Under the pieces are notes generated by a model, which was not told where the DNA came from, did not search any database, and saw only the letters and a list, made by a program, of their open reading frames with translations. A program made the position numbers and the translations under genes. A DNA stretch of 42,758 nt, from positions 1 to 42,758 of the IMG/VR virus record IMGVR_UViG_3300037847_004763. One strand, 5' to 3'. This stretch comes from a virus. Of the stretch, positions 1 through 42,758 are shown piece after piece (positions within the stretch are counted from its first letter, which is position 1; each line of letters opens with the position of its first letter).

Positions 1-99
1 TCAGCCTGGCTTGTGCTTCATTAGCCATGTTTGCGTTAGCTGATTAACTTTTGGTGGGACTAGATGGTGTGAGCTTACCCAGCCAAATTCATCGCCAAC
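1..99. repeat. Terminal direct repeat, left copy
   Basis: Bases 1-99 are identical to 42660-42758. An exact 99-base overlap at contig ends is what de Bruijn assembly of a circular or terminally redundant molecule leaves behind. The repeat lies inside the coding overlap between the exonuclease gene (start at 42687, equal to base 28) and the next minus-strand gene, so both remain continuous across the junction. I therefore read it as closure of the map, not as a biological terminal repeat. Confidence 0.95.
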
Positions 100-165
100 A
101 TCTATACGAACCATCCCGTCATCTGTATTAGTGATTACGGGTTCAGGGATTTTGTGTTCGGCCAT
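1..165 (-). CDS. Small hypothetical protein (54 aa)
   Basis: This frame ends exactly at base 1 (TGA) and in the circle overlaps the first 28 bases of the exonuclease gene, as cotranscribed phage genes often do. I chose the ATG at 165 (protein starts MAEHKIPEP) because GGAA lies a few bases upstream; in-frame ATGs at 174 and 192 are alternatives. The protein is short and mildly acidic, with a VRIDVGDEFGWV segment that could be a small beta fold. I recognise no family. The gene sits between a 57-codon gene and the exonuclease, so it may belong to a recombination and replication operon. Confidence 0.6.
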   Translation of the reverse strand: MAEHKIPEPVITNTDDGMVRIDVGDEFGWVSSHHLVPPKVNQLTQTWLMKHKPG

Positions 166-316
166 ACGTTCCATGGTTTTTATACAGCTCATATAAGCCG
201 CAGAAGCGTCCGTGGAAAGGGTGTTCTGGCATATATCGGAGGTCTGCTTGGTAAAGACGTTCCAGGTAGTCCACTCGTGCCTGTTGTTCCTTTACGTCTT
301 CCGCTCCGTAGGCCAT
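143..316 (-). CDS. Small hypothetical protein (57 aa)
   Basis: Found by translating the gap between the neighbouring minus-strand genes: ATG at 314-316, TGA at 143-145. The protein begins MAYGAEDVKEQQARVDYLE and is rich in charged and aromatic residues, with a predicted helix in the first 30 residues (EQQARVDYLERLYQADL). It overlaps the start of the downstream gene by 23 bases in another frame, typical of tight phage operons. The ribosome binding site is weak. Function unknown. Support comes from its natural amino-acid composition, its length and the way it fills the gap. Confidence 0.6.
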   Translation of the reverse strand: MAYGAEDVKEQQARVDYLERLYQADLRYMPEHPFHGRFCGLYELYKNHGTYGRTQNP

Positions 317-348
317 GCAAATACTATTTCCCAGTTGAATATACCTTG

Positions 349-912
349 TTAAAGCCTTTTTGCCAACTGCCGCTCTGCGTTCTCAAGGAGTTGGCGAAGC
401 CGGCGTTCCATTTCCTTTGGTGATTTTCTTGGGTTAGTACAAAACAAAATGCTGCCTTCACGTTCCAGGGAGGAGGCTTCTTTCAAAAGAGTTTTGAACT
501 CACCTCTCTGCTCTAGTAAAAGCAGCTGCTCCCAACGCTGAATAGTCAGTACAGGAACAGGCTTTAAGCCGATGTCTTCCGTTCCATCCGCTCTGGTGTA
601 CCTCTTCAGGTACCCATTTGCATATATCTGGTCGTAGAGGCAGTTGTCTCCTGTTTCATGCAGTTTTATGCCCCTCGCCTTTTCTTCTGTAGTTGGGAAA
701 AGCCATAGATGATCGGTTTTGACAGGCTTGCCGCGTTCAGGTTGTCCTTTCGCCTCCCACACAGAGGGTTGCTGGCCTGAGGTTTTGTAGACGTCCCAGG
801 GATATATGCGTGGTTTGCTTATGCAAGCCCGTTCTCGGCTTTTTATGACTGTGGTCACGTGACCGAAGACAACGACTGGTTTGTTGATGAGTGGTTTAAG
901 TTCAGTTCTCAT
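349..912 (-). CDS. Hypothetical protein (187 aa) of the exonuclease/SSB operon
   Basis: The open frame extends to 1011, but the ATG at 912 (MRTELKPLINKPVVVFG) is the more natural start, because the upstream 33 residues read like untranslated leader. The body mixes short beta-like stretches (PVVVFGHVTTVIKS) with a charged helical C-terminus ending in RRLRQLLENAERQLAKRL, a possible oligomerisation or nucleic-acid-binding helix. No catalytic motif is visible. The position between an SSB-like gene and an exonuclease suggests a DNA metabolism role, but this is only inference from neighbours. Three CGTTCCA motifs (404, 461, 580) fall inside it. Confidence 0.65.
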   Translation of the reverse strand: MRTELKPLINKPVVVFGHVTTVIKSRERACISKPRIYPWDVYKTSGQQPSVWEAKGQPERGKPVKTDHLWLFPTTEEKARGIKLHETGDNCLYDQIYANGYLKRYTRADGTEDIGLKPVPVLTIQRWEQLLLLEQRGEFKTLLKEASSLEREGSILFCTNPRKSPKEMERRLRQLLENAERQLAKRL

Positions 913-980
913 AAGGAAAAGCCGCCGGTGCTCGAATACCGACGGCCCATGCACCCCAACCTTTTCTAGGTTAGTACAAA

Positions 981-1100
981 TTAACGGGTGTAGCAAACAC
1001 CTCTGTAACAAAGATTGGCGGTCTTTGCGATTGCGTTTTGAGCAGTTTGAAGTGCTTGCTTCTTTTGCTGCTGCTTTTGAATGAGGCTGAGGACGTTCAT
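981..1100 (-). CDS. Small protein ending in a YRGV motif (39 aa)
   Basis: From the ATG at 1100 the frame encodes MNVLSLIQKQQQKKQ and ends CYRGVCYTR. The YRGV(x)YT ending resembles the YRG motif of the small cyanobacterial DUF4278 proteins, here with a Gln/Lys-rich helix in front. The frame is open further upstream, but that part would begin at a hairpin terminator (1173-1196), so the inner ATG is preferred. No good ribosome binding site is visible. The call rests mainly on the familiar C-terminal motif. Confidence 0.45.
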   Translation of the reverse strand: MNVLSLIQKQQQKKQALQTAQNAIAKTANLCYRGVCYTR

Positions 1101-1172
1101 GGGTTTGGTAGCAACGGTTACTAAAAGGCTATATATCTTGCCACGGAGGTGGTGTTCGTCCCAGCACAACAA

Positions 1173-1196
1173 AACCCCTAGCCGAAGCCAGGGGTT
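1173..1196 (-). terminator. Rho-independent terminator after the SSB-like gene
   Basis: AACCCCT at 1173-1179 pairs with AGGGGTT at 1190-1196 around a GC/GC extension and a CGAA tetraloop. On the minus strand the stem is followed by TTTTGTTGTG. It would end minus-strand transcripts coming from the SSB-like gene at 1400-1987. Confidence 0.75.
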
Positions 1197-1399
1197 CTGA
1201 AGCTTGCTAACAGGCGTGGTCTGTCAACAGATGCTGCACATAATGACCAGTCGAGCACGGCTAGTCAGTCCAACCGGTGATGAAGCGGATGGTATGTGAT
1301 CATTAGTGGACCTCCAGGTTTCCCCTTTGGCGCTAATGGCAATGGCGTTACAAGGGCACGGAGTCCGCCGCAACGAAATTGCTCAAAAATAATAGCACA
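1197..1399. other. Non-coding gap with a near-palindrome
   Basis: No gene of normal size is visible. Positions 1244-1267 form a 24-base imperfect dyad starting TGACCAG and ending CTAGTCA, with 18 of 24 positions symmetric and the mismatches spaced every third base. On the minus strand a 12-codon reading frame (MITYHPLHHRLD, ATG near 1299) has a strong GGAGG about 8 bases upstream, so a short leader peptide is possible. Neither is assigned a function. Confidence 0.4.
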
Positions 1400-1987
1400 T
1401 CAGTCAGCCTTGAATGGGTGGCCGCCGGTGAGAAGGCGGCTGATGTCAAAGCCGTTGCTGACCGCTTCGTTCCAGGCAGCATCTACTGCGGCTTGGCTGT
1501 CCTTCTTGCGGGGGACAGGGCGCAGGCCGTACATGTCGGGAGAGACGGTGGCGGCCTTCGTCATGATGAAGTCCCACTCGGTCATGTCGCTGTACTCCTC
1601 GACTTGTGAAATCTCGTCGAGTTCCTTCTGCAGACCCTTCTGCGTCAGGCTCAGCACCTGCACACGTTTGATGTCGAAGTTGTAGATCGGCATTGCGATG
1701 GCAAACTTCTGCGGCTCTTCCGTTCCATCGTCTTTGAGGCGGCGGCGGTAGTTAGCGCCCATCTCCTGCTCGATCTCGTCGGCAGATGCTTCTGCGGCAA
1801 AGCGGAACGGCTTGCCTTTGCCAGTTTCGTCTTCGCCCCAGACCTCGAAGTAGCAGAGGGGTTCGTTCGCCAGAATTGCAAAACGCACTTGGCCGTCAGC
1901 TTTGACCTTGCTGGGGCTCAGGTAGTCGTTACGGCTGCCACCGCCGCCTTTGAAGGCGTCACTGTGTTCTTTGGGGATGAAGCTCAT
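1400..1987 (-). CDS. Probable single-stranded DNA-binding protein
   Basis: 195 residues, ATG at 1987. The core SKVKADGQVRFAILANE, then PLCYFEVWGE, then KPFRFAAEA is the beta-strand pattern of OB-fold phage single-strand DNA-binding proteins found beside DNA polymerase and exonuclease genes, with exposed aromatics (Y, F, W). The N-terminus has a flexible Gly-rich stretch (FKGGGGSRN). I see no clear acidic tail like that of T7 gp2.5, so the assignment is by pattern and context. It is divergent from the PrimPol gene and has its own candidate promoter (2024-2051) and downstream terminator (1173-1196), as expected for a highly expressed replication protein. It would coat single-stranded DNA for PrimPol, polymerase and exonuclease. 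Confidence 0.6.
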   Translation of the reverse strand: MSFIPKEHSDAFKGGGGSRNDYLSPSKVKADGQVRFAILANEPLCYFEVWGEDETGKGKPFRFAAEASADEIEQEMGANYRRRLKDDGTEEPQKFAIAMPIYNFDIKRVQVLSLTQKGLQKELDEISQVEEYSDMTEWDFIMTKAATVSPDMYGLRPVPRKKDSQAAVDAAWNEAVSNGFDISRLLTGGHPFKAD

Positions 1988-2023
1988 GGTTTAGATGCTG
2001 CGGGCTATGCCCAGTGCCTATCA

Positions 2024-2051
2024 ATCCTAGTACTTTTGCGGGGTTTGACAA
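2024..2051 (-). promoter_or_regulatory. Candidate sigma-70 promoter of the SSB-like gene
   Basis: On the minus strand TTGTCA (2046-2051) is separated by 16 bases from TAGGAT (2024-2029), about 36 bases ahead of the ATG at 1987. It matches the bacterial -35/-10 pattern at most positions and lies just downstream of a minus-strand terminator, as expected for an independently started unit. Confidence 0.5.
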
Positions 2052-2063
2052 CCTTCGTAGAAT

Positions 2064-2098
2064 AAAAAAACCCCCAGTGCCCGTCCCGGCAGCTGGGG
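2064..2098 (-). terminator. Minus-strand terminator in the divergent gap
   Basis: CCCCAGTGCC (2072-2081) pairs with GGCAGCTGGGG (2088-2098) with one bulge. On the minus strand the stem is followed by seven T residues. It would stop antisense transcripts coming out of the PrimPol gene before they reach the SSB-like promoter. Confidence 0.75.
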
Positions 2099-2105
2099 AT
2101 TTGGA

Positions 2106-2121
2106 TAGTCCCGCTTGGGAC
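2106..2121. promoter_or_regulatory. Perfect hairpin/palindrome ahead of the PrimPol gene
   Basis: AGTCCC-GCTT-GGGACT, 30 bases before the PrimPol ATG and followed by CGTTTTG. It may be an operator, a leader hairpin or a weak attenuator. Its GTCCC/GGGAC arms share the core of the repeats inside the PrimPol gene (4271-4476), so binding by the same protein is possible but unproven. Confidence 0.45.
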
Positions 2122-2151
2122 TCGTTTTGTAGTTCTTTGAGACTGTAACAG

Positions 2152-4566
2152 ATGTCGAAGCTTCCTGCCTTCGTTCGTTCACTTCCTGCTGCCTGGGCTA
2201 CATGCCCCATCTATGGCAAAGGCGTCAAGCTTCCCTCCGGTAAAGAGGCTTGCGGTAAATCTCCTCTCGGTAAGACGCACCACGAAGATTGGTCTCCTGC
2301 TGAGACTGCGCTGCACATTGAGCGCAACCCTGACCAGTTCAAAGCTGTTGGTGTCTTCACCGGACCACGCAGCAATGGCTTGGTCATTCTTGACATTGAC
2401 GCCAACCTGGCTCAGCTGAAAAAGAAGTGGGGCAAAGACCTTGCTGCTGCACCGGTTATTGAGTCAACCAAGATAAATGCAGCCAAGTACCTCTTTTACG
2501 TTCCACGGGAGTACTGGGGTGAGGTTGATGGTCTGAGCCTTAGCGCCAGCAATGAAGGCTGGGAGGTGCTGTGGGGCCGTCAGGGGCTTGTAGGCGGCGC
2601 TTACAAGGATCAGGGTGTCTATACGCAGGAAGGCGACTTCGAGGCGATTCCAGAGGCTCCTGAGTGGCTTCTGGCATATATGAAGGAGTCTTTTCGTGGC
2701 AAGCAAAAGACTGGCGAAGGCAAAAAGGATCCGCGTTATGGGATGCGCTCCACCGAGGAGCTTTGCCTGATCGTTAAAAACTGCCTGACGGTTGTGCAGC
2801 CGCAGGGACGTGGCAGTGAAGACCAGTGGTGGCGCATTGGCGCAATGATTCACTCTGAGTTGCCTGGTGATGAGGGGCTCGACTTGTGGCGTGAGTGGTC
2901 GCAGCGTGACGATGAGTACGCCGACGACTGGCAAAACAACGATCCATGCGCTGATCGCTGGGAGTCCGGTTTTAAGTCAGGTGGTGGCTTGGGTTTGGGC
3001 AGCTTGATCACGCTGGCTGATCACTACGACCCAGATAGAAACCGCTTCGTGAATGACCCTGCTGCAAAGCAGGTGATTGAAGAAATCAACCAGATGGCGG
3101 TTTCGTTCCGTCAGGCTGTTCTTCCGTTTGAGCAGGTCATTGAGAAGGCCAAGAAATATCTGGAGCTGGATAACCCTGCTGAGATGAATTACAACCTCAA
3201 TAACTTGGCGCTCCAGGCCGGTTATCGAGACCAGATCTCGCTGGAGAAACTGATTGTTGATCAGATTCAGTTTGAGGGTGCAAAGGGATTAATGGGGGCG
3301 CAGGATTTGATGGATAGCGATCAGGAACGCAACTACCTGATTCCTGATGTGTTGCCGCACCCCTCTGTGGTGCTGATCTATGGCGCTGGCGGTGATGGCA
3401 AGTCCATGTCGGCTTGGACTATTGCGAAACACATTGCGACTGGTGCTCCCTTCATCGTCAGGGGTAAGCCCGTTCCAGTTGAAAAAGGTCCGGTGCTGCT
3501 GCTGAATGGTGATCAGCCGCTGGTGCAGCTCAAAGAGCAGCTTCAGGAGGTTGATTACCCGGCAGACAGCGAGACATTCATTCAGACCGATTGGCAGCTT
3601 CAGCGGTATGCGCAGTTCGTGAAGCTGATGCACGACATCAAGCCGAAGCTGGTGGTCATTGACTCGCTGATCGGCTGTAGCGGTGGTCGTGCCTTTGACG
3701 AAAACAAGAGCGACTTCGCCACGCCGCTGTACTGGCTGACTCGCAACAACGGCGTGCTGTTCCCGGCCACCACGATCCTCATCGTTCACCACGCCAACAA
3801 GCAGGGCGGCTTCAGGGGCACCTCAGCCATTCGTGACGCTGTAGATGAAACGTGGTCGCTGAAAAAGCCTGACAACGCTATTGGCAGCCTTCCGGCCCAT
3901 TGCAGGCTCATCACTATTGAAAAAAGCCGCTCTGGGCGCTCAGGCACTCAACTGGTTATGCGGATGGAAGATGACCTGAGCTTCTCCATCAGTGATTACA
4001 CGCCTGAGGTTGACTCGGGCAACAACGCTCCAAGCAGCATCACCGACCGGGTGCTTCAGCGGTTGCGTGTAATCCATCCTCGAACCGCTACTCGTAGCGA
4101 TCTCAACGCTGACCCTGTTATTGGCGGCAACGTCGCCGCTATTCGCAAATCGCTCCAACGCTTAGAGAAGCGGAATTTGATTGAGGTGGTTGGTTCCGTT
4201 CCAACCGGTGATGGGAAGAACACTTCTGATGTCTATAAAGCAGTTCTCGCGTGCGGGGCCCTGCGAGAGAGTGTCCCACCTTCGGAAAACCCTGTTGCTG
4301 GAACGGATTTAGGATGGGACACCTCGGTTAAAAACGAGGAAGTGTCCCACCTTGCTGGAGCGCAGGACGCCCCTGGAGCGGACGAACCAGATCAAGATGG
4401 GACACCTTCTCAAAAAACAGGTGAGTGTCCCACCTTAAAATCCAGTGCTGAAGCGGGAAGTGCCAAGATGGGACAGCCTGAGCAATATCCCCGCGCGAGG
4501 GAGGACGAACGGACCAAGGATGAGTTGAATGGGTCTCGTGATCAGGCTTGGAACATGTGGGGTTGA
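2152..4566 (+). CDS. PrimPol-type primase fused to a RepA-like helicase/ATPase
   Basis: 804 residues. The N-terminal ~200 residues look like a bifunctional primase-polymerase: LVILDIDAN with the metal-binding DxD at 81-83, following a YGKG...GKSPLG entry segment. The centre is a RecA-fold ATPase of the RepA/AAA_25 kind: Walker A GAGGDGKS at 411-418, Walker B LVVIDS with Asp 504, then IVHHANKQGGFRGTSAI, typical of RepA-like hexameric helicases. A winged-helix-like segment follows (about 620-690), then a low-complexity tail from about 700 to 804. It would prime and unwind DNA at the fork ahead of the phage PolA. The tail coincides with an inverted repeat array at DNA level (4271-4476), and its protein sequence looks dictated by those repeats. 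First gene of the plus-strand arm, followed by a terminator. Confidence 0.9.
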   Translation: MSKLPAFVRSLPAAWATCPIYGKGVKLPSGKEACGKSPLGKTHHEDWSPAETALHIERNPDQFKAVGVFTGPRSNGLVILDIDANLAQLKKKWGKDLAAAPVIESTKINAAKYLFYVPREYWGEVDGLSLSASNEGWEVLWGRQGLVGGAYKDQGVYTQEGDFEAIPEAPEWLLAYMKESFRGKQKTGEGKKDPRYGMRSTEELCLIVKNCLTVVQPQGRGSEDQWWRIGAMIHSELPGDEGLDLWREWSQRDDEYADDWQNNDPCADRWESGFKSGGGLGLGSLITLADHYDPDRNRFVNDPAAKQVIEEINQMAVSFRQAVLPFEQVIEKAKKYLELDNPAEMNYNLNNLALQAGYRDQISLEKLIVDQIQFEGAKGLMGAQDLMDSDQERNYLIPDVLPHPSVVLIYGAGGDGKSMSAWTIAKHIATGAPFIVRGKPVPVEKGPVLLLNGDQPLVQLKEQLQEVDYPADSETFIQTDWQLQRYAQFVKLMHDIKPKLVVIDSLIGCSGGRAFDENKSDFATPLYWLTRNNGVLFPATTILIVHHANKQGGFRGTSAIRDAVDETWSLKKPDNAIGSLPAHCRLITIEKSRSGRSGTQLVMRMEDDLSFSISDYTPEVDSGNNAPSSITDRVLQRLRVIHPRTATRSDLNADPVIGGNVAAIRKSLQRLEKRNLIEVVGSVPTGDGKNTSDVYKAVLACGALRESVPPSENPVAGTDLGWDTSVKNEEVSHLAGAQDAPGADEPDQDGTPSQKTGECPTLKSSAEAGSAKMGQPEQYPRAREDERTKDELNGSRDQAWNMWG
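4271..4476. repeat. Alternating inverted iteron array (candidate replication origin)
   Basis: Six copies of a 10-base core, GTGTCCCAYC, alternate in orientation. GTGTCCCACCTT is at 4271, 4342 and 4425; GATGGGACA is at 4313, 4396 and 4467. Relative to the PrimPol frame each set falls in all three codon phases (1,0,2 for both), so the repeats are conserved as DNA and not as protein. Arrays like this serve as origin iterons or as autoregulatory sites for replication proteins. Confidence 0.7.
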
Positions 4567-4591
4567 CACAAGTTCTGGGTTGTACTACAAA

Positions 4592-4615
4592 AAGAGGGTC
4601 CTAACGGGCCCTTTT
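4592..4615 (+). terminator. Rho-independent terminator after PrimPol
   Basis: AAGAGGGTCC (4592-4601) pairs with GGGCCCTTTT (4606-4615) around a TAAC loop, with one U-G pair; the T-rich side forms the tail. It lies 25 bases after the PrimPol stop and just ahead of the AT-rich gene at 4629, which should therefore have its own promoter or depend on read-through. Confidence 0.65.
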
Positions 4616-4628
4616 ACCTCATTAAAAA

Positions 4629-5327
4629 ATGACTCGACTTACTTTTCACTCTGGCGAGTACCAAGTTCCCGATGAATGGAACGACCCTGAATGGATTATG
4701 AAGTTCAGCAACTTTCCTGATCCTAAGTTTTTTCATTTGAGAAATGAATATGATTGGGAAAACAAAAACGATAAAGGACTCCTTTATGGGTACATAAAGC
4801 ATTTGGCAGGGACTGAATACGCTAGAGACATTTACCAGCCTTTCAATCTTCCTGAAAAACCAAAAAGAGAGTACAGCGGCAGCCCTCACGCATATTTTTT
4901 GTTTGCTAAAGGGACGGCAACACTGTTAAATAAGCCAAGTTTGATTAGAAAACCTTACTTCAAATGCTTGTCTGGGAGCGACATTATCAACTTTGTAAAT
5001 AAAGTACCCATTAAAGATCTGTTTCCTAACAGCTGGGACTGCCACCGCATTTTTTCTAGGTTAGACGCGAGTAAAAATATCATTCCTATGAAATACTCTG
5101 CTTTATACGCTAGAACTTTTAATGCAACATCTGGCGTACTTAATGACGATGTAATAAGCACTAAAGATAGAGAACCCGCTTTAACCCAATGCAAAATTTG
5201 TAAAGGCATATATGAGCTGACTGGTTCGGCTACCTACACTATGGAGCAAAACGCTTTTTCTTATAAATACGCTAAGAGAACACTTGAGAGGCAAAAAGCA
5301 GAACGTGCCAAGTTAGAAAACCTGTAA
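4629..5327 (+). CDS. AT-rich hypothetical protein (232 aa), possible recent acquisition
   Basis: Unrecognised. The protein is rich in Lys, Asn, Tyr and Phe and ends in a basic helix (YAKRTLERQKAERAKLENL). A CKICKGIYEL segment near residue 190 could be half of a metal site, but no second Cys pair is obvious, and an HNH or GIY-YIG signature is not visible. Sampled lines of the gene are about 33-38 % G+C against roughly 50 % in the flanking genes, and codon use differs accordingly. It follows a terminator directly, has a poor ribosome binding site, and looks like an inserted moron-type or selfish gene. A degenerate homing endonuclease is one possibility that I cannot support by motif. Confidence 0.7.
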   Translation: MTRLTFHSGEYQVPDEWNDPEWIMKFSNFPDPKFFHLRNEYDWENKNDKGLLYGYIKHLAGTEYARDIYQPFNLPEKPKREYSGSPHAYFLFAKGTATLLNKPSLIRKPYFKCLSGSDIINFVNKVPIKDLFPNSWDCHRIFSRLDASKNIIPMKYSALYARTFNATSGVLNDDVISTKDREPALTQCKICKGIYELTGSATYTMEQNAFSYKYAKRTLERQKAERAKLENL

Positions 5328-5367
5328 TATGTCTACTATTACTTTCTGTACTACTTAAACCCAGTCT

Positions 5368-5661
5368 ATGTCCTACGACATCACAATTCCTGACAAAGTC
5401 CTCAATGCTGCTGATCGACTCACACTGAAAGACTTATTGGACTCACCCGCATTCAACATTTATTTGGTGAGTGCCATCGGCAACAGCCTTCAGACGTACC
5501 ACAAGTTCATGGAAGTTATTGATGAGCGTGACGAGTTTTTGATGTTCCGCCTGGATCAAATTTTCAAGGGCATCCCATACGAAACACGCAGGGCTTGCTT
5601 CGATGAGGTGGGGCGTCTGTACCGCGAGAAGCGTGATGAGCGCCAAAACCAACTGCGCTAG
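5368..5661 (+). CDS. Hypothetical early protein (97 aa)
   Basis: Largely helical by composition (LTLKDLLDSPAFNIYLVSAIGNSL; a charged C-terminal helix GRLYREKRDERQNQLR). I do not recognise the family. It is preceded by a TGTACTA element also seen before other early genes. Its stop overlaps the stop of the convergent NblA-like gene by four bases with no terminator between them, so the two transcripts overlap antisense. Confidence 0.7.
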   Translation: MSYDITIPDKVLNAADRLTLKDLLDSPAFNIYLVSAIGNSLQTYHKFMEVIDERDEFLMFRLDQIFKGIPYETRRACFDEVGRLYREKRDERQNQLR

Positions 5662-6717: not shown

Positions 6718-7019
6718 TTATCTCCACCTACAAAGACGAATGCCCCTTCTACGCTCCAACGCGCTGGTCGCGTGAGGTGTCTGGTACGCCTGAGTTCATT
6801 CACACCATTCGTGAAGCTATGGAAGAAAGCGTCGATTACGTCGGTGTTTTCGATAATGCGGGTGTTTGCAAAGGTATTTGGTGCCGTGAAGCTGATGTGG
6901 ACTTTGGGGAAGGTGAGTGCTACGACGTTATGTATGTCGTCAATCAGTACTACGTCCTAGAACGACCCAATAGCAGTTTCAGCTTTGGTCATGCCCTTAA
7001 ACGACTCGCCATCGAATGA
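6714..7019 (+). CDS. Hypothetical early protein (101 aa)
   Basis: It starts in an ATGA overlap with the preceding gene. Acidic, with a mixed alpha/beta pattern (FIHTIREAMEESVDYVGVFDNAGVCKGIW, then ECYDVMYVVNQYYVLERP). No recognised family. Its 3' end overlaps the first 29 bases of the DUF3310 gene, so it belongs to the same cotranscribed block as DNA polymerase. Confidence 0.7.
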   Translation: MIISTYKDECPFYAPTRWSREVSGTPEFIHTIREAMEESVDYVGVFDNAGVCKGIWCREADVDFGEGECYDVMYVVNQYYVLERPNSSFSFGHALKRLAIE

Positions 7020-7302
7020 CCTAGTCAATTCACCGGCTCACTACACGCAAGGCCGGTTTGAAGCGATTGATGTTATCGAAGATGTCATTCGCCACGCACC
7101 AGACCCGATTAGCGGTATGTTGCTTGGGAACACGTTGAAGTACTTGCTTCGCGTGTGGTTTAAAGCTTGTCCGCACCAGGACGCCAAAAAAGCTCGTTGG
7201 TATCTCGACCGCCTGATCCAGCATTTGGAATCAGAACAAGCGGCTGAGCTGTACAAGCGCCTCGAAGACAATCCACCGCCTTTCGATGACCCGCTGCAAT
7301 GA
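6991..7302 (+). CDS. DUF3310 family protein
   Basis: 103 residues from the ATG at 6991 (MPLNDSPSND). The motifs SPAHYTQGRFEAIDVIE, GNTLKYLLRVWFK and DAKKARWYLDRLI are the signature of DUF3310, a family very common in tailed phages next to replication genes and sometimes fused to nucleotide kinase annotations, without a proven activity. The Asn/Lys/Arg-rich helices suggest nucleotide or nucleic-acid binding. It overlaps the previous gene and is followed by a TGA/ATG overlap with the 56-residue gene before polA. Confidence 0.9.
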   Translation: MPLNDSPSNDLVNSPAHYTQGRFEAIDVIEDVIRHAPDPISGMLLGNTLKYLLRVWFKACPHQDAKKARWYLDRLIQHLESEQAAELYKRLEDNPPPFDDPLQ

Positions 7303-37263: not shown

Positions 37264-37305
37264 TAGAAGTCCCCTAATTAAGAAAGGTTTGCAATAAACC
37301 TAGCG

Positions 37306-37416
37306 CTACTTTGATTTTTTCTTTTTGCCGCCTTTGAGTGAGCGCAGATAGCCTTCACAGCGGGCTTTTGCGGCGTTTTTGCTGCTGGATTTGGGCTTTT
37401 TCTTCTTTTCAGCCAT
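37306..37416 (-). CDS. Small lysine-rich protein (36 aa)
   Basis: The open frame extends into the end of the terminase gene, but the sensible start is ATG 37416 (MAEKKKKPKSSSKNAAKARC), 13 bases after the TerL stop. It ends SLKGGKKKKSK; more than a third is Lys. One of three consecutive tiny basic proteins (with 37198-37263 and 37002-37172) between terminase and portal; a role in neutralising packaged DNA is plausible but unproven. Confidence 0.65.
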   Translation of the reverse strand: MAEKKKKPKSSSKNAAKARCEGYLRSLKGGKKKKSK

Positions 37417-37429
37417 GGGAAGTGGGCGC

Positions 37430-38680
37430 CTACCAAACACGATAGTTAGTGGATCCCATGGTTTCGGGTTTAGCCAAGTTGAATACTTGTAGGCATAGAT
37501 AGCCCAAAGCGTCGAAGGCATGGTCAACACCGAGGTTTTTGTTGGGTAGTCCCGTTCCAGGGGCGTAGGTGAGGGTGCGGAGGGCTTTGATTAGTTCTTT
37601 GCAGCGGGGGTGGATGAACATGCGGCGCGTTCCAGTTGCATCCAGGAGTGCTGTGTTGACGCAGGTGATTTTGTCGCGGATTTTCCAGGGGGCGCGGGGG
37701 GTGGAGACGGTGAAGCCGGATTTGCGGAGGATGCTGTGGTCGGTGGTGCCGACGCCTTGGGTTTTGCGGGCTCCGCCGGTGGGGTCTGGGCAGCTGATGA
37801 TGCGACGATCCACGCCGTAGCGGTTTTGCACTTCTTCGCAGAAGTCCCAGGTGGTTGCGCCGCCGGTCATGATGATTTCGTCGAAAATCCAGAGCACGTC
37901 GCCTTTTTTGACGGCGCAGATGCCGGTCATTGGGTCGACGTTGAAGTCGACTCCGAGCAGTAGGGGCAAGACGGGGAGGTCTTTGACGTCTTTGCTGATG
38001 TTGTCGTCGGCGAAGCTGATGGCGACGAGGCCGCTTAGGTTCTCGAAGGACGCTTCGAATTCCTGGCGGAACGTGCGCGTATCAAGCTGAGCGCGGGCTG
38101 CGGCGACTTCCTCGGGTGGGACGTTGCCGCCTTGGATGGTTGTGTAGCACCAGCGCTGCCAGTCGCCGGTTTTGTCTTCTGGGACATAACACCACATGTC
38201 GTAGAACCAGCTTGCCGTACCATCCGGCGTGCTGATGAACAGTGCCCAGCCTTGTTTGTCGGCGAGGGCGGGGCGGATGACTTCGAACCAGACAGCGGAT
38301 TCCATGAAAGCCGCCTCGTCGAGTACTACACCAGAGAGGCTGCGGCCGCGAAGGGCCATGGCGTTTTCGGTGCCTTTGAGTTCGATGGTTGCGCCGTTGA
38401 CGAGTTCGATTTTGAGGTCGGTTTCGTTTTTGCTACGTACCAGGACAGGTGGGATTATCTTTTTTAGGACCTTCCAGGCGATGTCTTTCGCCATTCGGTA
38501 GGTGGGTGCGCAGTAAAAGAAGGTTTCGCCGGGGGAGTTGGCGGCCTTTTGTAGTAGTTCTATGCAGGCTAGGTAGGACTTGCCGAAGCGGCGGCCGGCG
38601 ACGAGGACGCGGAAGCGTTTTTGGCTGGCGAATACTTCGTATTGGGCTGGTTTTAGTGCGACATCAATCGTTTTCGACAT
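37430..38680 (-). CDS. terL: Terminase large subunit
   Basis: 416 residues. ATPase: Walker A GRRFGKS (29-35), Walker B SGVVLDEAA with D121/E122, coupling motif ISTPDG (149-154). Nuclease: VDFNVDP with Asp 245 and NLGVDHAFDALGY with D386 and D390 as further metal ligands, the RNase H-like fold. It packages DNA into the procapsid with the small subunit and portal. Overlaps the terS stop by 17 bases. The adjacent unusual non-coding stretch (39180-39540) could hold the packaging recognition site. Confidence 0.95.
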   Translation of the reverse strand: MSKTIDVALKPAQYEVFASQKRFRVLVAGRRFGKSYLACIELLQKAANSPGETFFYCAPTYRMAKDIAWKVLKKIIPPVLVRSKNETDLKIELVNGATIELKGTENAMALRGRSLSGVVLDEAAFMESAVWFEVIRPALADKQGWALFISTPDGTASWFYDMWCYVPEDKTGDWQRWCYTTIQGGNVPPEEVAAARAQLDTRTFRQEFEASFENLSGLVAISFADDNISKDVKDLPVLPLLLGVDFNVDPMTGICAVKKGDVLWIFDEIIMTGGATTWDFCEEVQNRYGVDRRIISCPDPTGGARKTQGVGTTDHSILRKSGFTVSTPRAPWKIRDKITCVNTALLDATGTRRMFIHPRCKELIKALRTLTYAPGTGLPNKNLGVDHAFDALGYLCLQVFNLAKPETMGSTNYRVW

Positions 38681-39179
38681 CTTCGGTTTGGGTTACGTCG
38701 ATTGGGGGTAGGGCGGTGGCGTCCGAACCAGTCATTTGGGTGGGTGGTTCGACGCGGACGCGGATTTCGGGCAGGGATTCGGTGGCGGTTGGTTCGTCGC
38801 AGCCCACTTGACGTGCCAGGGAGTCGAGGATGCTGGCGGCGGTTTGTAGTTGGCCGCGTTTGATGGCGGCGTTGAGGACTTTTTGGCGCATTGAGAAGAT
38901 GCGGCTGGCGTATTTTTCACGTTCCAGCTCAAAGTCTTGGTTGTTGAGGTTTGCGACCTCACGCCAGTCGCGCCAGGCGGTTTCTTCGCTGATTTGTTCT
39001 TTTTGGGCGTGGTCGAGGACTAGCTGTTTGGCGGGGAGTCCTTCGAGTTGGCGCATGTAGAGGCGCTTAATTCGCTGCTCTCGTTTGTAGTGAAAGCGCG
39101 TAATTTTTGGCGCGTGCTTGTTTTCCTTGGGTTCTTCGGAATGTCCCACAGGGACATCTTTGTTTTCCACGAGATTCAC
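38664..39179 (-). CDS. terS: Terminase small subunit
   Basis: 171 residues, GTG start at 39179. N-terminal helix-turn-helix-like part (REQRIKRLYMRQLEGLPAKQ, then LVLDHAQKEQISEETAWRDW), central helices (LEREKYASRIFSMRQKVLNA, then AIKRGQLQTAASILDSLARQ) and a Pro-rich acidic C-terminus (EIRVRVEPPTQ). Phage-type small terminase layout directly upstream of and overlapping terL. It binds the packaging signal. Its own 5' coding region contains a perfect palindrome (39141-39157). Confidence 0.85.
   Translation of the reverse strand: MNLVENKDVPVGHSEEPKENKHAPKITRFHYKREQRIKRLYMRQLEGLPAKQLVLDHAQKEQISEETAWRDWREVANLNNQDFELEREKYASRIFSMRQKVLNAAIKRGQLQTAASILDSLARQVGCDEPTATESLPEIRVRVEPPTQMTGSDATALPPIDVTQTEDVEND
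39141..39157. repeat. Palindrome in the 5' end of terS
   Basis: ATGTCCC-ACA-GGGACAT, a perfect 7-bp inverted repeat with a 3-base centre. Its TGTCCCAC half equals eight bases of the iteron core in the PrimPol gene, hinting that one protein may bind at both sites. Candidate operator or packaging site. Confidence 0.55.
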
Positions 39180-39540
39180 AGAATCTTACGTCAAGAGTAA
39201 CAACGTTCCAGCCAACTTAACTAGTGCTCGTATTTTTTGCCATAGCGGGTGTAGCACACCAAAAACTTGACCCCTGCCCCCTAGTACAGTAGAGTATCTT
39301 TGTGATGTTCATGGAGGTTCCCTGTGTGTTGCCCAGTGCGCTGAGCAGCTGAACCCTACCCCCTGGCGTTGTTGCGAGCCGTTCGCAATAGGCCTGGCCC
39401 TTAACGCGGCGGGCCTATTGACAGCAGTTCGCAATAAAGAGCACAGCAGCCGGCCAACCGTTGCGCCGCAGTGGCCGCCGGCCCATGGGAGACGAGCGTG
39501 GCAGCCGGGCTGTCGGCAGAGAGGCAAAGCGCAGCGGATC
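39180..39540. other. Structured non-coding region upstream of terS
   Basis: No convincing gene. CAATAGGCC (39386-39394) and GGCCTATTG (39412-39420) form a perfect 9-bp stem with a 17-base loop, bracketed by the direct repeats GTTCGCAATA at 39381-39390 and 39427-39436. A second GC-rich inverted pair (CGGCC...GGCCG) lies near 39451-39477. A plus-strand promoter candidate (39267-39295) opens toward them, while terS is read in the opposite direction. Candidate late regulatory region, pac/cos site, origin or non-coding RNA. Confidence 0.55.
39267..39295 (+). promoter_or_regulatory. Candidate sigma-70 promoter pointing away from terS
   Basis: TTGACC (39267-39272), exactly 17 bases, TAGAGT (39290-39295): five and four of six matches to the consensus. 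It points into a region with no plus-strand gene until 40916, so its product would be a non-coding or antisense RNA carrying the 39386-39420 hairpin; a 15-codon frame (MFMEVPCVLPS) follows it. Confidence 0.5.
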
Positions 39541-39729
39541 TTACCGGCCGTAAACGGTGAGAACACACTGGTCTGCAGTAGCACCTGCGGTGATGCATCG
39601 GCGAAGTTTGCTCTCATCCTCAGCAGCAAAGACGAGAGCATATGTAGCGCAACAGAGCAAGAAAGCAGCAAGGGAGCCGCCAACGCGCCAAGCATCGAAA
39701 ACGCTGGAATCGACAGAACGAAGGGACAT
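39541..39729 (-). CDS. Small membrane protein (62 aa)
   Basis: Start chosen at ATG 39729 (MSLRSVDSSVFDAWRVGG), because the longer frame to 39831 would begin inside a strong terminator. One clear transmembrane helix (GGSLAAFLLCCATYALVFAA, about 17-36) is followed by a soluble tail (DESKLRRCITAGATADQCVL) with two Cys that may form a disulfide. A TTGACA lies 36 bases upstream. Unknown role; possibly superinfection exclusion or lysis control. It lies opposite the candidate plus-strand RNA. Confidence 0.6.
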   Translation of the reverse strand: MSLRSVDSSVFDAWRVGGSLAAFLLCCATYALVFAAEDESKLRRCITAGATADQCVLTVYGR

Positions 39730-39778
39730 GATGTTGTGGGGGTTGTGCGGATGGGTGCCGCTTGCTGTCAATTGTAGC

Positions 39779-39813
39779 AAAAAAGAAGCCGAGACAGCGA
39801 GCGCCCCGGCTTT
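39779..39813 (-). terminator. Terminator after the 39822-40753 gene pair
   Basis: On the minus strand AAGCCG and CGGCTT (39807-39812 with 39786-39791) form the stem around a 15-base loop, followed by C and six T residues. It ends transcription of the two minus-strand genes above. Confidence 0.75.
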
Positions 39814-39821
39814 CTTAAGGT

Positions 39822-40271
39822 TTACGGCCAAGACTTCGCCTTGGGATTGAAGCGGCTGTCCAAGTCATCCCGAAGCGTTAAACCTGACGCACCAGGTCGC
39901 CCGGTCTCACGCCAGCGCTTCCAAGTGAACAGCGCTAGCGCCTCAGCATCAGCGAAGCCTAGGGTCTCGACAGACTCCCACCATTGCGCTTCACATTTCC
40001 AGCGGTCGAAAGCATTCAGCCCGCCATCACCAAAGGGAGCAACGGACCACGAATAAACCCGCAATACCACGTGGAAACCGTCATCCGTGGGATCCCGCAG
40101 AATCTCCATCTCACCAGCTAAGCCTATGTGATCGTGGACGGCCCACGGATGCAGGTATAGGCTGGTCGTCGCGCCCTCTGGGACGCCGCAACGGTTCACA
40201 TAATGCAGCTGCAGAAAATCCGTTTTCTGTGCTTCAGTCGGAAACAGCGTCAGGGTTTCAGTGGTGCTCAT
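39822..40271 (-). CDS. Hypothetical protein (149 aa)
   Basis: MSTTETLTLFPTEAQKTDFL, then HIGLAGEMEILRDPTDDGFH, VLRVYSWSVAPFGDGGLNAF and ALFTWKRWRETGRPGASGLT. Mixed alpha/beta, Trp-rich, near-neutral, soluble. No recognised motif. Its start overlaps the stop of the upstream gene (ATGA), so the pair is cotranscribed and ends at the terminator 39779-39813. It is in the variable zone between packaging and early genes, where anti-defence and takeover genes often reside, but this one shows nothing specific. Confidence 0.65.
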   Translation of the reverse strand: MSTTETLTLFPTEAQKTDFLQLHYVNRCGVPEGATTSLYLHPWAVHDHIGLAGEMEILRDPTDDGFHVVLRVYSWSVAPFGDGGLNAFDRWKCEAQWWESVETLGFADAEALALFTWKRWRETGRPGASGLTLRDDLDSRFNPKAKSWP

Positions 40272-40753
40272 TGTGCGACCTCACCAACGAACCACACCAG
40301 CGCTTCCTTCTGTGCATCATCCAACCAAAGGAAGTCAGCAGCGGAAGCCCAACTAAACCAAAGCCGCAGACTGTCGGCGTCGACGTGACCATGGCGGCCA
40401 AAATCTCCGGTGATCCAGCAAGACGGACCACCAACAGTCAGCCACACTTTGAAACTGTCAGGCTGACCGTCGAAGTCGCTACCAGCGGACCAGGTAGCTG
40501 AATAGTCCACACCTAGGCAAGCGCTGCGGCAAGCGTCCCAGGCAGCGTCGCGGATATGGTCGGCGGTCAGGTCGTCAGTGTCAAAGTTGAAGCCGGCGTC
40601 TTCGCAGATCTCGACGGCATCAGCAGACAAGGGGAAGAGCTTCTTGTCATCGTCCCAGAGCCTGGCGAAACGGTCCAGCTCATAGATGGCCTCAATGGTG
40701 GCAAGCTTTGCGCGTGCGTTCTCTTGGCCGGTGTTTTGTGTTGTGGTTGCCAT
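40268..40753 (-). CDS. Hypothetical acidic protein (161 aa)
   Basis: ATG 40753 (MATTTQNTGQENARAKLATI) is preferred over the longer frame from 40792. Strongly acidic and Asp/Trp-rich (LWDDDKKLFPLSADAVEICE, then FDTDDLTADHIRDAAWDACR, SAGSDFDGQPDSFKVWLTVG, LRLWFSWASAADFLWLDDAQ). Acidity and size recall DNA-mimic or anti-restriction proteins of phages, but I see no ArdA, Ocr or similar family signature, so this is speculation. A TACAGTAG element lies just upstream (40777-40784), resembling the one at 39284. Confidence 0.65.
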   Translation of the reverse strand: MATTTQNTGQENARAKLATIEAIYELDRFARLWDDDKKLFPLSADAVEICEDAGFNFDTDDLTADHIRDAAWDACRSACLGVDYSATWSAGSDFDGQPDSFKVWLTVGGPSCWITGDFGRHGHVDADSLRLWFSWASAADFLWLDDAQKEALVWFVGEVAQ

Positions 40754-40844
40754 AGGTAGCGGCGAACTCGACTCATACAGTAGAACACACAATTCGGCAG
40801 CCTGTCAACCGATCCACCTAAGAAAATCTGAGAATTCTCAAAAT

Positions 40845-40904
40845 GTCTCAGGGGGTCTTGCGACAGGTCTCACCTATATGTAATGTGCTGCAGTACATGT
40901 CTCA
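40845..40904 (+). promoter_or_regulatory. Promoter/operator region of the plus-strand cassette
   Basis: Candidate promoter TTGCGA (40858-40863), 17 bases, TAATGT (40881-40886). Three GTCTCA hexamers (40845, 40867, 40899) surround it, and a CTGAGA...TCTCAG inverted pair with a GAGAATTCTC palindrome lies just upstream (40828-40850). The arrangement suggests a repressor-controlled start for 40916-41905. Confidence 0.45.
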
Positions 40905-40915
40905 ACCTCTCACCC

Positions 40916-41200
40916 ATGGAGAAGACAGAAGCACTGGAGTTCATCCGCGCCAGGCTCGACGACGGTTGCATCCGTTCTGAGGTCATCGCTGAGCTAACGG
41001 AAGCTGGCGTTAGCCGTGCCACTGCCTATAGATGGTTCAACATGCTGGCCAAGCCAGAAGCCGAACCAACGCACTCAGACCTTGTCTTGAATGCGCTCAA
41101 AGATCAGCTGTATCAGGCACAAGCGGTGGACGATCCAGAGCAGATTCTTAAAGTCGCCAATGCTTACGCCGCTGCCCTCGCAAAATTCAAACGCGTCTAG
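40916..41200 (+). CDS. Helix-turn-helix protein (94 aa)
   Basis: The frame is open from 40883, but ATG 40916 (MEKTEALEFIRARLDDGCIR) is the natural start. SEVIAELTEAGVSRATAYRW is a resolvase-type helix-turn-helix with the recognition helix SRATAYRWF. The C-terminal half is helical (LVLNALKDQLYQAQAVDDPE, then ANAYAAALAKFKRV), suited to oligomerisation. Could be a transcription regulator of the cassette or, by shape, a second small-terminase-like protein; the gene overlapping terL is the better terS. Preceded by repeated GTCTCA sites that it might bind. Confidence 0.7.
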   Translation: MEKTEALEFIRARLDDGCIRSEVIAELTEAGVSRATAYRWFNMLAKPEAEPTHSDLVLNALKDQLYQAQAVDDPEQILKVANAYAAALAKFKRV

Positions 41201-41220
41201 AGGCTGAGACTCACGAGACC

Positions 41221-41249
41221 CAACACTAAACACACGAACCACTCAAAAC
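41221..41249 (+). repeat. 29-base leader repeat, copy 1
   Basis: CAACACTAAACACACG... ending ACTCAAAAC, one base before the ATG at 41251. Identical over 29 bases to 41666-41694, which stands at the same distance before the ATG at 41696. It has no purine-rich Shine-Dalgarno, so it may act in translation or as an RNA-level control element. Confidence 0.8.
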
Positions 41250-41250
41250 C

Positions 41251-41634
41251 ATGCACCTTGATCTCAAAGCCCAAGACTATCCTCTCTTAATTGACGCAAT
41301 CCACTGGGAGCTGGACCTGCTTGAGGAATTAGATGCAGACGCATCTCCTCGATACAAACGGTTAGTTGAAATCCAAGAGCATATACAAGCTTTTGTTGAT
41401 GACGTTCCAGGGAAGCAGAAAAGGGTTGGATCGTTTATACCCAGGCTGCGGCTCTCCAAACTGAAGCCGCCGTCCCGAGAGTTCCCCTACTACTTCTCAG
41501 AAAACGGCGTGACTGTTTGGCTAAACCAAAAGCAGTATTGGGATTTAAGGAAGGCTTTCTTAGGGCAGGCTAAAGAAGGCGATCCAGTTGCCTTAAAACG
41601 TCTTCAAGGTTTTGGGCCACTACCAAAAAAATAA
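41251..41634 (+). CDS. Hypothetical protein (127 aa)
   Basis: MHLDLKAQDYPLLIDAIHWE, then DVPGKQKRVGSFIPRLRLSK, FPYYFSENGVTVWLNQKQYW. Acidic helical N-terminus (LELLEELDAD-like), a basic middle, and a C-terminal domain ending ALKRLQGFGPLPKK. No known family. It carries the shared 29-base leader, so it is presumably coregulated with the ribbon-helix-helix gene at 41696. Confidence 0.65.
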   Translation: MHLDLKAQDYPLLIDAIHWELDLLEELDADASPRYKRLVEIQEHIQAFVDDVPGKQKRVGSFIPRLRLSKLKPPSREFPYYFSENGVTVWLNQKQYWDLRKAFLGQAKEGDPVALKRLQGFGPLPKK

Positions 41635-41665
41635 AGTTAAGCGGCTAAGCCGTCAAAGTAGGACT

Positions 41666-41694
41666 CAACACTAAACACACGAACCACTCAAAAC
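41666..41694 (+). repeat. 29-base leader repeat, copy 2
   Basis: Exact copy of 41221-41249, again one base before an ATG (41696). The preceding AAGCCGTCAAAGTA (41648-41661) is itself repeated at 41891-41904, inside the end of the same cassette, suggesting local duplication. Confidence 0.8.
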
Positions 41695-41695
41695 A

Positions 41696-41905
41696 ATGAA
41701 AGCTAATCACCTTTCTGTTTCCTGTAGCAGGGAAATGGATTTCAGGATGATTCAGCACCTTGCTGAGTTAAGTGGTCAGTCAGTTTCAGCCATGGCCGGT
41801 AACTGCCTGTCTGAGTACCTGCAAGAAAACTATTTAAGGCTGGCGGAATTCTATGAGGAAGCACGTTCCAGGCTGGATGCTCAGGCAGCCAAGCCGTCAA
41901 AGTAA
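41696..41905 (+). CDS. Ribbon-helix-helix-like protein (69 aa)
   Basis: MKANHLSVSCSREMDFRMIQ, then HLAELSGQSVSAMAGNCLSE: strand (LSVSCSREM), helix A and helix B (SVSAMAGNCLSEYLQEN) with the spacing of small ribbon-helix-helix repressors, plus a C-terminal helix (AEFYEEARSRLDAQAA). Likely a DNA-binding dimer. Its 3' end overlaps the convergent exonuclease gene by 25 bases with no terminator in between. Confidence 0.65.
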   Translation: MKANHLSVSCSREMDFRMIQHLAELSGQSVSAMAGNCLSEYLQENYLRLAEFYEEARSRLDAQAAKPSK

Positions 41906-42687
41906 ACCTCACAACGTTCCAGGAATCGAGATTCAGCGCCTCGCAGTTCAAGCTCGCTTAATTCGCGCAGCTGCGGGGCTCCGGTGCGACGTGCCACCAC
42001 CACATACGCTCCAGCCGCTTTTATGCCGGTGAGACTCTTGAGACCCAAACTGTATGCGCCTAATTGGTCGATGTAGTTGGTGAGCATCTCTTCGCTTCTT
42101 TCGCGTTGACTGGTTTTCCAGTCGATAAGCATTGGCCCCTTGCCTTGAATGTCGAGTAAGGCGTCACACGTTCCAGCAAAACCAGCTGAATGGTGAATGG
42201 AAAATTCGACGGCATGAATGGCGGTTACGTGTTTGCCGATCCAGCCGCGTAGGCCGCGTGCGTAGCCTGCTGCGCTCCAGGGGACTCTAGGAGCGCCTTG
42301 AATGGCTCTTTCGATACCCCATGAGGTGATGGAGCCGGGGCAACGTTCCAGGCCGTCTTTAGAGGTTTTCCAGACGTTGCGTTTGTTGGCGGCTTTGCGG
42401 GCTAATTGGGCTCCGGTTTTGAGGATGTATTCCGCGTGGTTGTGGGCAAGGGTGCCTCGTGTAGCAGCGGTTTCCCGATCTTGTTCGCTACCTGGACGAG
42501 CCAGCCAACGTTCCAGGGCTTGTTTTTGATGATCCGGTGCCGTAGCGCCCAGTATGTGGGTGACGCTATGAAACACGCCGCCAGCGTTGTCCCGATAAAC
42601 GCGCCAGTTGAAATCGGTTCCGGAGTCATCACGCACCAGGGAACTTTTGCGTAACTTACTCAGCCTGGCTTGTGCTTCATTAGCCAT
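41881..42687 (-). CDS. PD-(D/E)XK exonuclease (Cas4/RecB-like)
   Basis: 268 residues. Motifs: GTLAHNHAEYI (H82, E86), then VEFSIHHSAGFAGTCDALLD with E161 and D175, and MLIDWKTSQ with D189 and K191, the (D)...(D)xK core of RecB/Cas4-type nucleases; QLGAYSLGL follows as the conserved Gln helix (motif IV). No four-Cys iron-sulfur cluster as in true Cas4. It would resect DNA ends for recombination or replication along with the SSB-like protein. The gene crosses the window junction in the circular map. The region around it has the densest set of CGTTCCA motifs in the genome. Confidence 0.85.
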   Translation of the reverse strand: MANEAQARLSKLRKSSLVRDDSGTDFNWRVYRDNAGGVFHSVTHILGATAPDHQKQALERWLARPGSEQDRETAATRGTLAHNHAEYILKTGAQLARKAANKRNVWKTSKDGLERCPGSITSWGIERAIQGAPRVPWSAAGYARGLRGWIGKHVTAIHAVEFSIHHSAGFAGTCDALLDIQGKGPMLIDWKTSQRERSEEMLTNYIDQLGAYSLGLKSLTGIKAAGAYVVVARRTGAPQLRELSELELRGAESRFLERCEVYFDGLAA

Positions 42688-42758
42688 GTTTGCGTTAGCT
42701 GATTAACTTTTGGTGGGACTAGATGGTGTGAGCTTACCCAGCCAAATTCATCGCCAAC
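42660..42758. repeat. Terminal direct repeat, right copy
   Basis: Exact copy of bases 1-99. Removing one copy gives a 42,659-bp circle. The sequence does not say whether the virion DNA is circularly permuted (headful) or has defined ends. Confidence 0.95.

Follow-up and report, generated by a model that had tools for sequence, protein, structure and literature searches.

Sequence-specific priming is described for several replication systems. The pRN1 primase is specific for GTG, and RepB' of plasmid RSF1010 acts at the sites ssiA and ssiB (PMC4234260); priming by the primase-polymerase (PrimPol) of phage NrS-1 depends on an 8-nt word in the template (PMC7102993). We analysed a 42,758-nucleotide virus genome, IMG/VR record IMGVR_UViG_3300037847_004763 (the window, meaning the whole stretch), which has a 99-base direct end repeat and carries a dispersed, strand-biased motif, CGnnCCA, that changes polarity beside a repeat array in the gene for a PrimPol fused to a helicase. 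We consider it probable on balance, by a modest degree, that the phage primase-polymerase-helicase starts its primers at this motif in the template strand, as at an ssi site but genome-wide. Searches of open-access PMC papers on strand-biased phage motifs, primase sites and cyanobacterial Chi brought up no account of the motif.

The origin oriV of RSF1010, with RepC iterons, the RepA helicase and the RepB' primase, resembles the locus studied here in that an iteron-type array is flanked by oppositely oriented sites (PMC4234260), and RepB' belongs by prediction to the same fold family as the window primase. However, the RSF1010 origin is described as having two stem-loop sites, with extension on the leading strand (PMC4234260), whereas the words found here are short and genome-wide, and primase and helicase are fused. 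ORF904 of pRN1 gave the best structural matches to the window primase, and the pRN1 origin lies just downstream of the replication gene (PMC4234260), comparable to the probable origin here. pRN1 differs in its 3-nt motif and in a stem-loop origin without iterons. In NrS-1, as here, a phage PrimPol is joined to a helicase; its recognition word differs from the motif of the window. NrS-1 also differs in that only two copies of its site are described (PMC7102993). Among recombination signals, the Chi sites of lambdoid phages are similarly asymmetric and dense between the replication genes and the packaging site (PMC3784561). Unlike them, the motif here shows no excess in host-family DNA, and at an iteron-like array it clusters and switches polarity. 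KOPS and DNA-uptake sequences are short, oriented, dispersed words that belong to host chromosomes. The motif shares these three properties but is specific to a phage clade in what was searched.

The strand bias was first noticed in a sequence-only reading of the window, and its counts agreed with ours (43 plus-strand and 7 minus-strand copies of CGTTCCA, 22 and 7 of CGTACCA), except that it gave 5 rather than 7 for minus-strand TGGTACG. Longer forms occurred on the plus strand only, with 12/0 for ACGTTCCAGG and 16/0 for CGTTCCAGG. Among all 7-mers of the window, CGTTCCA ranked first in both frequency and strand asymmetry. Its excess survived a maximal-order Markov background (43 seen, 26.9 expected, z-score (z) 6.7), so that it passes the refuting test set by the sequence-only reading, and extension past the 7-mer added little (CGTTCCAG, 28 vs 25.8 expected, z 1.8). 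In a scan of gapped patterns scored against codon shuffles (10 masks × 1,024 patterns = 10,240), CGnnCCA ranked first in the window, with 160 vs 56.7 expected and z 13.7. CGTTCCA and CGTACCA are the commonest forms of a degenerate, bipartite motif CGnnCCA, the consensus of which was ACGYTCCAG over 5,590 contexts (reverse complement CTGGARCGT).

1 to 42,758, plus strand: dispersed oriented motif CGnnCCA, 189 plus-strand and 67 minus-strand sites (the 99-base end repeat counted once)

A by-product of codon use or strand-specific mutation would be conceivable in a genome with most genes on the minus strand and a mild plus-strand excess of G and T over most of its length. However, CGTTCCA favoured the plus strand whichever way the genes ran (9/2 in plus genes, 28/4 in minus genes), outside genes (6/1 in non-coding DNA) and in all three codon phases. 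The bias also exceeded synonymous-codon shuffles, with z 7.7 for plus and 13.5 for minus genes, and still did so when codon-boundary dinucleotides were kept as well (z 3.4 and 7.9), which bears out the earlier claim that codon use does not explain it. In addition, site conservation relative to the mean of same-composition words reached z above 3 in three of seven comparisons (G001, 120/144, z 3.7; G002, 65/85, z 5.2; G003, 59/82, z 4.3) and was weaker against G011 (z 2.4). Together with the gapped-pattern scan and a switch of polarity within one gene (below), these results contradict the by-product explanation, which we find hardly credible. They support the view that the motif is a DNA-level, oriented, dispersed and non-palindromic element such as those that replication or recombination machinery reads.

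The portal protein of the window was closest among isolates to those of cyanophages S-H1, S-2L and KBS-S-2A (36%), and its terminase shared 43% identity with the S-2L terminase and as much with those of Vibrio phages. The best NCBIfam match of its sigma factor was the cyanobacterial RpoD family TIGR02997, below the family cut-off. Terminase matches at E 1e-10 were found in 12 of 400 genomes searched, and relatives at 76-77% identity lay on contigs of two Cyanobium-family genomes. The host therefore probably belongs to the Cyanobium family (Cyanobiaceae).

CGnnCCA again ranked first of 10,240 patterns in each of five near-complete relatives of the window, G001-G005 (z 14.2, 13.5, 13.8, 13.3 and 9.9). 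We also collected 167 loci by homology to the exonuclease or PrimPol (G+C range 0.36-0.59), in some cases two from a single contig. In all 158 loci of at least 5 kb, the forward observed/expected ratio (O/E) was at least 1.86 (median 2.93) and above the reverse O/E (median 1.31); forward sites also outnumbered reverse sites in each of the nine excluded shorter loci. In 80 loci with related portal genes, a reduced form of the motif was counted 1060 vs 133 times, mostly in minus-gene DNA, where codon use contributes.

The sequence-only reading had described the bias as extending over the whole genome. It does, but not uniformly. From 39,800 to 42,659, and on from position 1 around the circle to 4,235, we found a strictly polar block with 54 plus-strand and 2 minus-strand motifs, as opposed to 128/62 over 4.2-38.7 kb; 38.7-39.8 kb held 7/3. 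The meaning of the motif comes from the switch at the end of this block, at the probable origin, which that reading had missed.

39,800 to 42,758, plus strand: left part of the polar block, from the terminase side toward the probable origin; densest 2-kb bin at 40.7-42.7 kb
1 to 4,235, plus strand: right part of the polar block, ending at the polarity switch
2,152 to 4,566, plus strand: primase-polymerase fused to a hexameric-type helicase (Prim-Pol, PriCT-2, AAA_25), the proposed reader of the motif
4,151 to 4,203, plus strand: forward motifs CGCTCCA (4,151) and CGTTCCA (4,197), just left of the array
4,299 to 4,380, minus strand: reverse motifs TGGAACG (4,299) and TGGAGCG (4,356 and 4,374), within the array; a forward motif follows at 4,383

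Small ORFs at 39,309-41,905, upstream of the small terminase gene, are absent from most relatives and overlap the densest 2-kb bin.

When the genomes were rotated to the start of the large terminase gene (terL), the window, G001, G002 and G004 showed a forward peak 2-4 kb past that start and few reverse sites from there to 8 kb. The peak was less sharp in G007 and G008, hardly visible in G006 and lacking in G005; G003 could not be rotated and was left out. In the pooled coding DNA of the window (G000), G001, G002, G004 and G005, 2-4.5 kb past the terL start, the forward O/E was 2.83 and the reverse O/E 0.58, and the non-coding DNA of the same stretch contained 9.9 forward and 0.0 reverse sites per kb. 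Maps centred on PrimPol were made from 80 non-redundant loci, after near-duplicates (>95% identical in 300 nt of PrimPol) had been dropped. The reverse motif was avoided (O/E 0.46-0.63) from 5 kb left of the PrimPol start through the first kilobase of the gene; past it the reverse O/E rose to 1.37 and then 2.21, falling to ~1.5 by 8 kb. The forward O/E stayed at 1.95-5.1 from 5 kb left of the start to 8 kb.

The switch itself was located in 74 non-redundant full PrimPol genes, in which the pooled polarity flipped within ~100 nt at codon ~675-700, corresponding to ~4,235 in the window. Codons 650-700 held 148 forward motifs (22.3 expected) and 4 reverse motifs (11.0 expected), whereas codons 700-750 held 20 (8.4 expected) and 87 (23.4 expected), respectively. 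Over these genes the switch lay at a median of 17 nt left of PrimPol codon 700. The 100 nt that precede the anchor contained 15.8 forward and 0.4 reverse sites per kb, and the next 300 nt ~8 reverse and 0.7-4.7 forward sites per kb. Forward sites outnumbered reverse sites in the left 300 nt of 73 of the 74 genes, and 62 showed the full flip. Of 1,024 patterns of the same form, CGnnCCA ranked first for the flip (z 14.8, runner-up 7.7). A cause at the protein level is unlikely, because the expectations were corrected by codon shuffling.

Immediately right of the switch, the window contains an array of alternating GTGTCCCACC and GATGGGACA elements, in which the GTGTCCCACCTT and GATGGGACA units are near reverse complements of each other and the copies are spaced by 71 and 83.

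4,264 to 4,475, no strand assigned: iteron-like array, three GTGTCCCACCTT and three GATGGGACA units alternating
4,235 to 4,490, no strand assigned: probable replication origin in the primase gene, at its 3' end, with the polarity switch first and then the repeat array

Six such regions were examined. The array was clear in the window, L273, L400 and L286 and weaker in L290 and L432. L273, a close relative of the window (PrimPol 88%), shares its array layout, and L400 has a related repeat, GTGTCCACCC. Across the 74 loci, the 350 nt that follow the switch on its right held 17.3 TGTCC/GGACA words per kb, compared with 1.8 in control DNA, and 60 loci had at least four of them within 350 nt. Synonymous identity between the window and six close relatives was 0.91 at codons 700-725 (80 codon comparisons), as against 0.50-0.74 at codons 500-700. 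A repeat cluster near the presumed initiator gene, typical of iteron origins, is present in the window and in most loci, and oppositely oriented motif sites flank it, as would be expected of ssi-like sites. The array is probably an iteron-type replication origin inside the primase gene, which would serve as the initiator gene. The lambda origin, which lies inside gene O, is a parallel for such a position.

Under the proposed mechanism, replication would start at the iteron array in the 3' end of the primase gene (window ~4,235-4,490). With the word taken as 5'-CTGG(A)(R)CG(T)-3', the prevailing sites would sit on the lagging-strand template of each outgoing fork, since CTGGnnCG lies on the minus strand left of the array and on the plus strand right of it. 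The helicase would unwind the DNA, and the primase domain would recognise the word in the single-stranded template and start a primer there. The sites nearest the array, within 100-300 nt of it, would serve to start one first strand in each direction, like ssiA and ssiB in RSF1010, and the further sites (~190 in one orientation and 67 in the other) would set where Okazaki fragments begin. The stretch from the origin to the packaging side would be crossed by leftward forks only, so that one site orientation is used and the other avoided, whereas elsewhere forks would pass in both directions, mainly leftward, for instance during late concatemer or rolling-circle synthesis. Primer synthesis at the motif would account for the outward switch, for the sites crowded beside the array, for the arm toward the packaging side with its single orientation and for the restriction to phages. 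More tentatively, at not quite an even chance, we suggest that this cyanophage clade fixes its lagging-strand starts with ~190 primase words per genome, which forks that leave an origin within the primase gene would meet on their lagging-strand template. The genome would then be a map of fork direction, and PrimPol an Okazaki primase with a long word.

DnaG-type primases recognise 3-nt words. If the proposal is right, PrimPol enzymes gain a lagging-strand role with a far longer recognition word, and fork direction, origin and primer-start sites become readable from the sequence of a widespread group of uncultured cyanophages. The combination of codon shuffling and polarity switch would then find origins in other phages. 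Even with a nuclease as the reader, the motif would still be a testable handle on replication and packaging, as a polar word with a flip at a likely origin and with its reverse form avoided on the packaging side.

Several results weigh against the proposed role in priming. In the bins 10-8 kb left of PrimPol (25-31 loci), the forward and reverse O/E were 1.75 vs 2.23 and 1.66 vs 1.60, and this lack of clear forward dominance on the far left is not predicted by priming at the motif. Forward sites also exceed reverse sites right of the probable origin (4.2-38.7 kb, 128/62), which needs additional leftward synthesis. The flip is a pooled result: 12 of the 74 genes lack it in full; in the window, the left 300 nt contain 3 forward and 0 reverse sites but the right 300 nt 2 forward and 3 reverse sites; and G005, G006 and G007 have one left site each and no reversed site on the right. 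Synonymous identity is equally high elsewhere in the primase gene (0.93 at codons 150-175). In the distant genomes G006-G008, a shifted and weaker form, GnnCCAG, leads (z 8.6, 8.0 and 8.4), and CGnnCCA is weaker there, as in G008 (z 3.6, rank 5 of 1,024). One or two other same-composition words were conserved too in the comparisons with G001-G003, and site conservation against G004, G005 and G009 was not significant. Furthermore, the role of the primase as reader is inferred, and the two copies of the 8-nt site described for the NrS-1 genome are unlike a genome-wide array (PMC7102993). Finally, Chi sites acting on leading strands would switch polarity at an origin too.

The sequence-only reading had named a Chi site of the host among its candidates. 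In this explanation, a packaging cut exposes a double-stranded end, host RecBCD enters, and the oriented sites turn degradation into recombination; the flip at the origin would reflect the repair of broken forks toward it. The purest block indeed lies between the packaging side and the replication genes, a position like that described for Chi in lambdoid phages (PMC3784561). A search limited to RecC found family PF04257 in 44 of 51 hand-picked host-family genomes. A review likewise places recBCD in most Prochlorococcus and several marine Synechococcus (PMC5101192). The motif also has CTGG in common with E. coli Chi, GCTGGTGG. In Synechococcus phage P60 (L118), which is T7-like, both strands were depleted of CGnnCCA (43 sites for 75 expected, z -3.6), which ranked 17th from the bottom among 1,024 patterns; RecBCD-blocking phages are likewise depleted of Chi.

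However, CGnnCCA was at its codon-shuffle expectation, with neither excess nor strand bias, in two stretches of host-family DNA (G183, 800 kb, 1106 sites for 1142 expected; G217, 400 kb, 580 for 552). The longer form CGTTCCAG occurred 58 vs 28 times along G183, mostly through codon use (53 vs 40.3 and 27 vs 25.2 in genes). None of the genomes searched came near the phage density: CGTTCCAGG reached at most ~39 per Mb in 300 host-family genomes, compared with 374 in the window, and ACGTTCCAGG at most ~6 per Mb in 386 genomes of the phylum, compared with 281. A scan of contigs for cyanophage PsbA served only to reach the host-family genomes, and most of its 80 loci were from other cyanobacteria. 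Fourteen other cyanophages, five of them scored on their first 50 kb only and several others slightly short, were not comparably enriched (z at most 2.3 forward and 2.5 reverse); the highest forward scores were those of KBS-S-2A and MED4-184. Against a Chi site stand also the 13 of these cyanophages other than P60, none of which exceeds z 2.3 forward, and the pile-up of sites within 100 nt of the repeat array, which has no obvious rationale for Chi. Within what was searched, the motif is specific to the phage clade, and we regard a host Chi site as unlikely, if worth keeping in view.

The depletion in P60 possibly reflects avoidance of a site that is harmful to T7-like phages; T7-like Syn5 showed no clear depletion of CGnnCCA (77 vs 84). 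In G183 (L212-L251, 800 kb), GGTGCTGG and CCAGCACC exceeded their codon-shuffle expectations (157 vs 95 and 151 vs 72), as did CACCGGTG (81 vs 25), and the first two could be a lead to the picocyanobacterial Chi.

We then compared the candidate readers. Among ten members of the PrimPol family, PriCT_2 and AAA_25 were found in all ten and Prim-Pol PF09250 in four (E up to 0.05), the window copy not among them. A structure model of PrimPol residues 1-300 (pLDDT 84) matched the pRN1 primase-polymerase in Foldseek at E 3.8e-06 (best matches 3m1m, 9aam and 1rni) and NrS-1 PrimPol at 1.0e-04 (7rr4, 6a9w and 6jon). RSF1010 RepB' followed at 2.5e-03 and 3.2e-03 (3h20 and 3h25), above the 0.001 line, and the TM-scores of these matches were modest, ~0.3-0.5. 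A sequence-profile search of the family against PDB chains gave no match at E 0.01. The N-terminus is thus predicted to have a primase-type fold, of the archaeo-eukaryotic primase (AEP) kind, alongside the PriCT domain. Two further proteins accompany PrimPol.

1,400 to 1,987, minus strand: probable single-strand DNA-binding protein (SSB), from family matches of its relatives
41,881 to 42,687, minus strand: PD-(D/E)XK exonuclease, a RecB-family nuclease with MGME1 as its nearest solved relatives

Of 15 members of the SSB family, 4, 2 and 1 matched three PHROG ssDNA-binding families. The window copy matched only a PHROG family of unknown function, and a structure search with the SSB model found no solved structure below E 0.001.

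Across 53 loci, with near-duplicates removed by shared sites, variation in the preference for a 3' G of the motif correlated with protein identity for the PrimPol N-terminus (rho 0.32), the exonuclease (0.48) and SSB (0.55), and not for the helicase domain (-0.10). That the motif varies with phage proteins also speaks against a host Chi site. The result supports a reader within the PrimPol/exonuclease/SSB module without singling out the primase. Three observations count against the primase here: the exonuclease and SSB, which travel with PrimPol, correlate better than it does; motif variation also correlates with G+C (rho 0.36); and the motif persists where PrimPol is only ~40% identical. The motif might instead be a signal for another protein of this module, chiefly the exonuclease or SSB. 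It would then be a Chi of the phage's own, at which the exonuclease stops or is redirected on phage DNA but not on the host DNA that it consumes. Homologs of both are usually present in the surveyed loci (partly by construction, as the loci were fetched by exonuclease or PrimPol), host DNA has no excess, and in the window and several relatives the motif is densest near the exonuclease gene. Such a signal would not predict a switch at the repeat array in the primase gene, however, and domain analysis of the exonuclease revealed a nuclease domain only, with no helicase seen. Sequence-specific reading is documented for the primase family and is not known for this exonuclease family. We therefore rate the exonuclease or SSB as a doubtful reader, a shade less probable than a host Chi site.

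In 13 loci (including L434, L436, L446, L447, L455, L287, L290 and L393), the 3' G preference is lost, with P(G) 0.33 vs 0.51-0.61 in the other three groups. These loci have a diverged SSB, and no DNA polymerase of the window type was detected in them.

One-strand, sequence-specific nicks occur in T5 and phiKMV-like phages, and the one-strand motif and an HNH endonuclease gene in the window would suit a phage nickase. However, ~190 sites far exceed the nick numbers of those phages, and KBS-S-2A, without a comparable enrichment (z 2.3), also has the HNH gene (50%); nicking is a very improbable function of the motif.

A motif read by the DNA-packaging motor, in the manner of KOPS, was suggested by the sequence-only reading as well, and the polar block does start near the terminase genes, where packaging is expected to begin close to the probable small terminase gene.

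37,430 to 38,680, minus strand: large terminase subunit
38,664 to 39,179, minus strand: probable small terminase subunit, from its position upstream of terL only, with no family match

The motif did not track the motor gene. G715:C13, a 41-kb AT-rich phage contig in a host-family genome (L319-L321; without end repeat and perhaps incomplete), has a terminase 77% identical to that of the window, and its motif was enriched on both strands without bias (17 vs 9 and 16 vs 6). It carries a lambda O-like initiator and an Erf-like annealing protein, an apparent module swap relative to the window; PrimPol and exonuclease searches of G715 and G207, run without a positive control, were empty. Conversely, L380 and L383 have a terminase of 30% identity beside the usual exonuclease, SSB and PrimPol, and keep the polar block from terminase to PrimPol. 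In L383 it amounts to 9, 7 and 6 forward vs 2, 1 and 0 reverse sites per 1.5 kb, and the foreign terminase and portal DNA has 0-1 forward sites per 1.5 kb. Because of these two cases, the packaging motor is unlikely to be the reader, and we give a KOPS-like packaging signal next to no weight. The lack of strand bias in the Erf-bearing contig also fits a host Chi site, as phages with their own recombinase need Chi less. From the candidates of the sequence-only reading, an oriented word of the replication or recombination type is thus retained, while the host Chi and packaging-motor forms are disfavoured.

Two other genes lie right of the probable origin.

6,985 to 7,302: DUF3310 protein (Pfam PF11753), found in all of G001-G008
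7,470 to 9,398, plus strand: family A DNA polymerase

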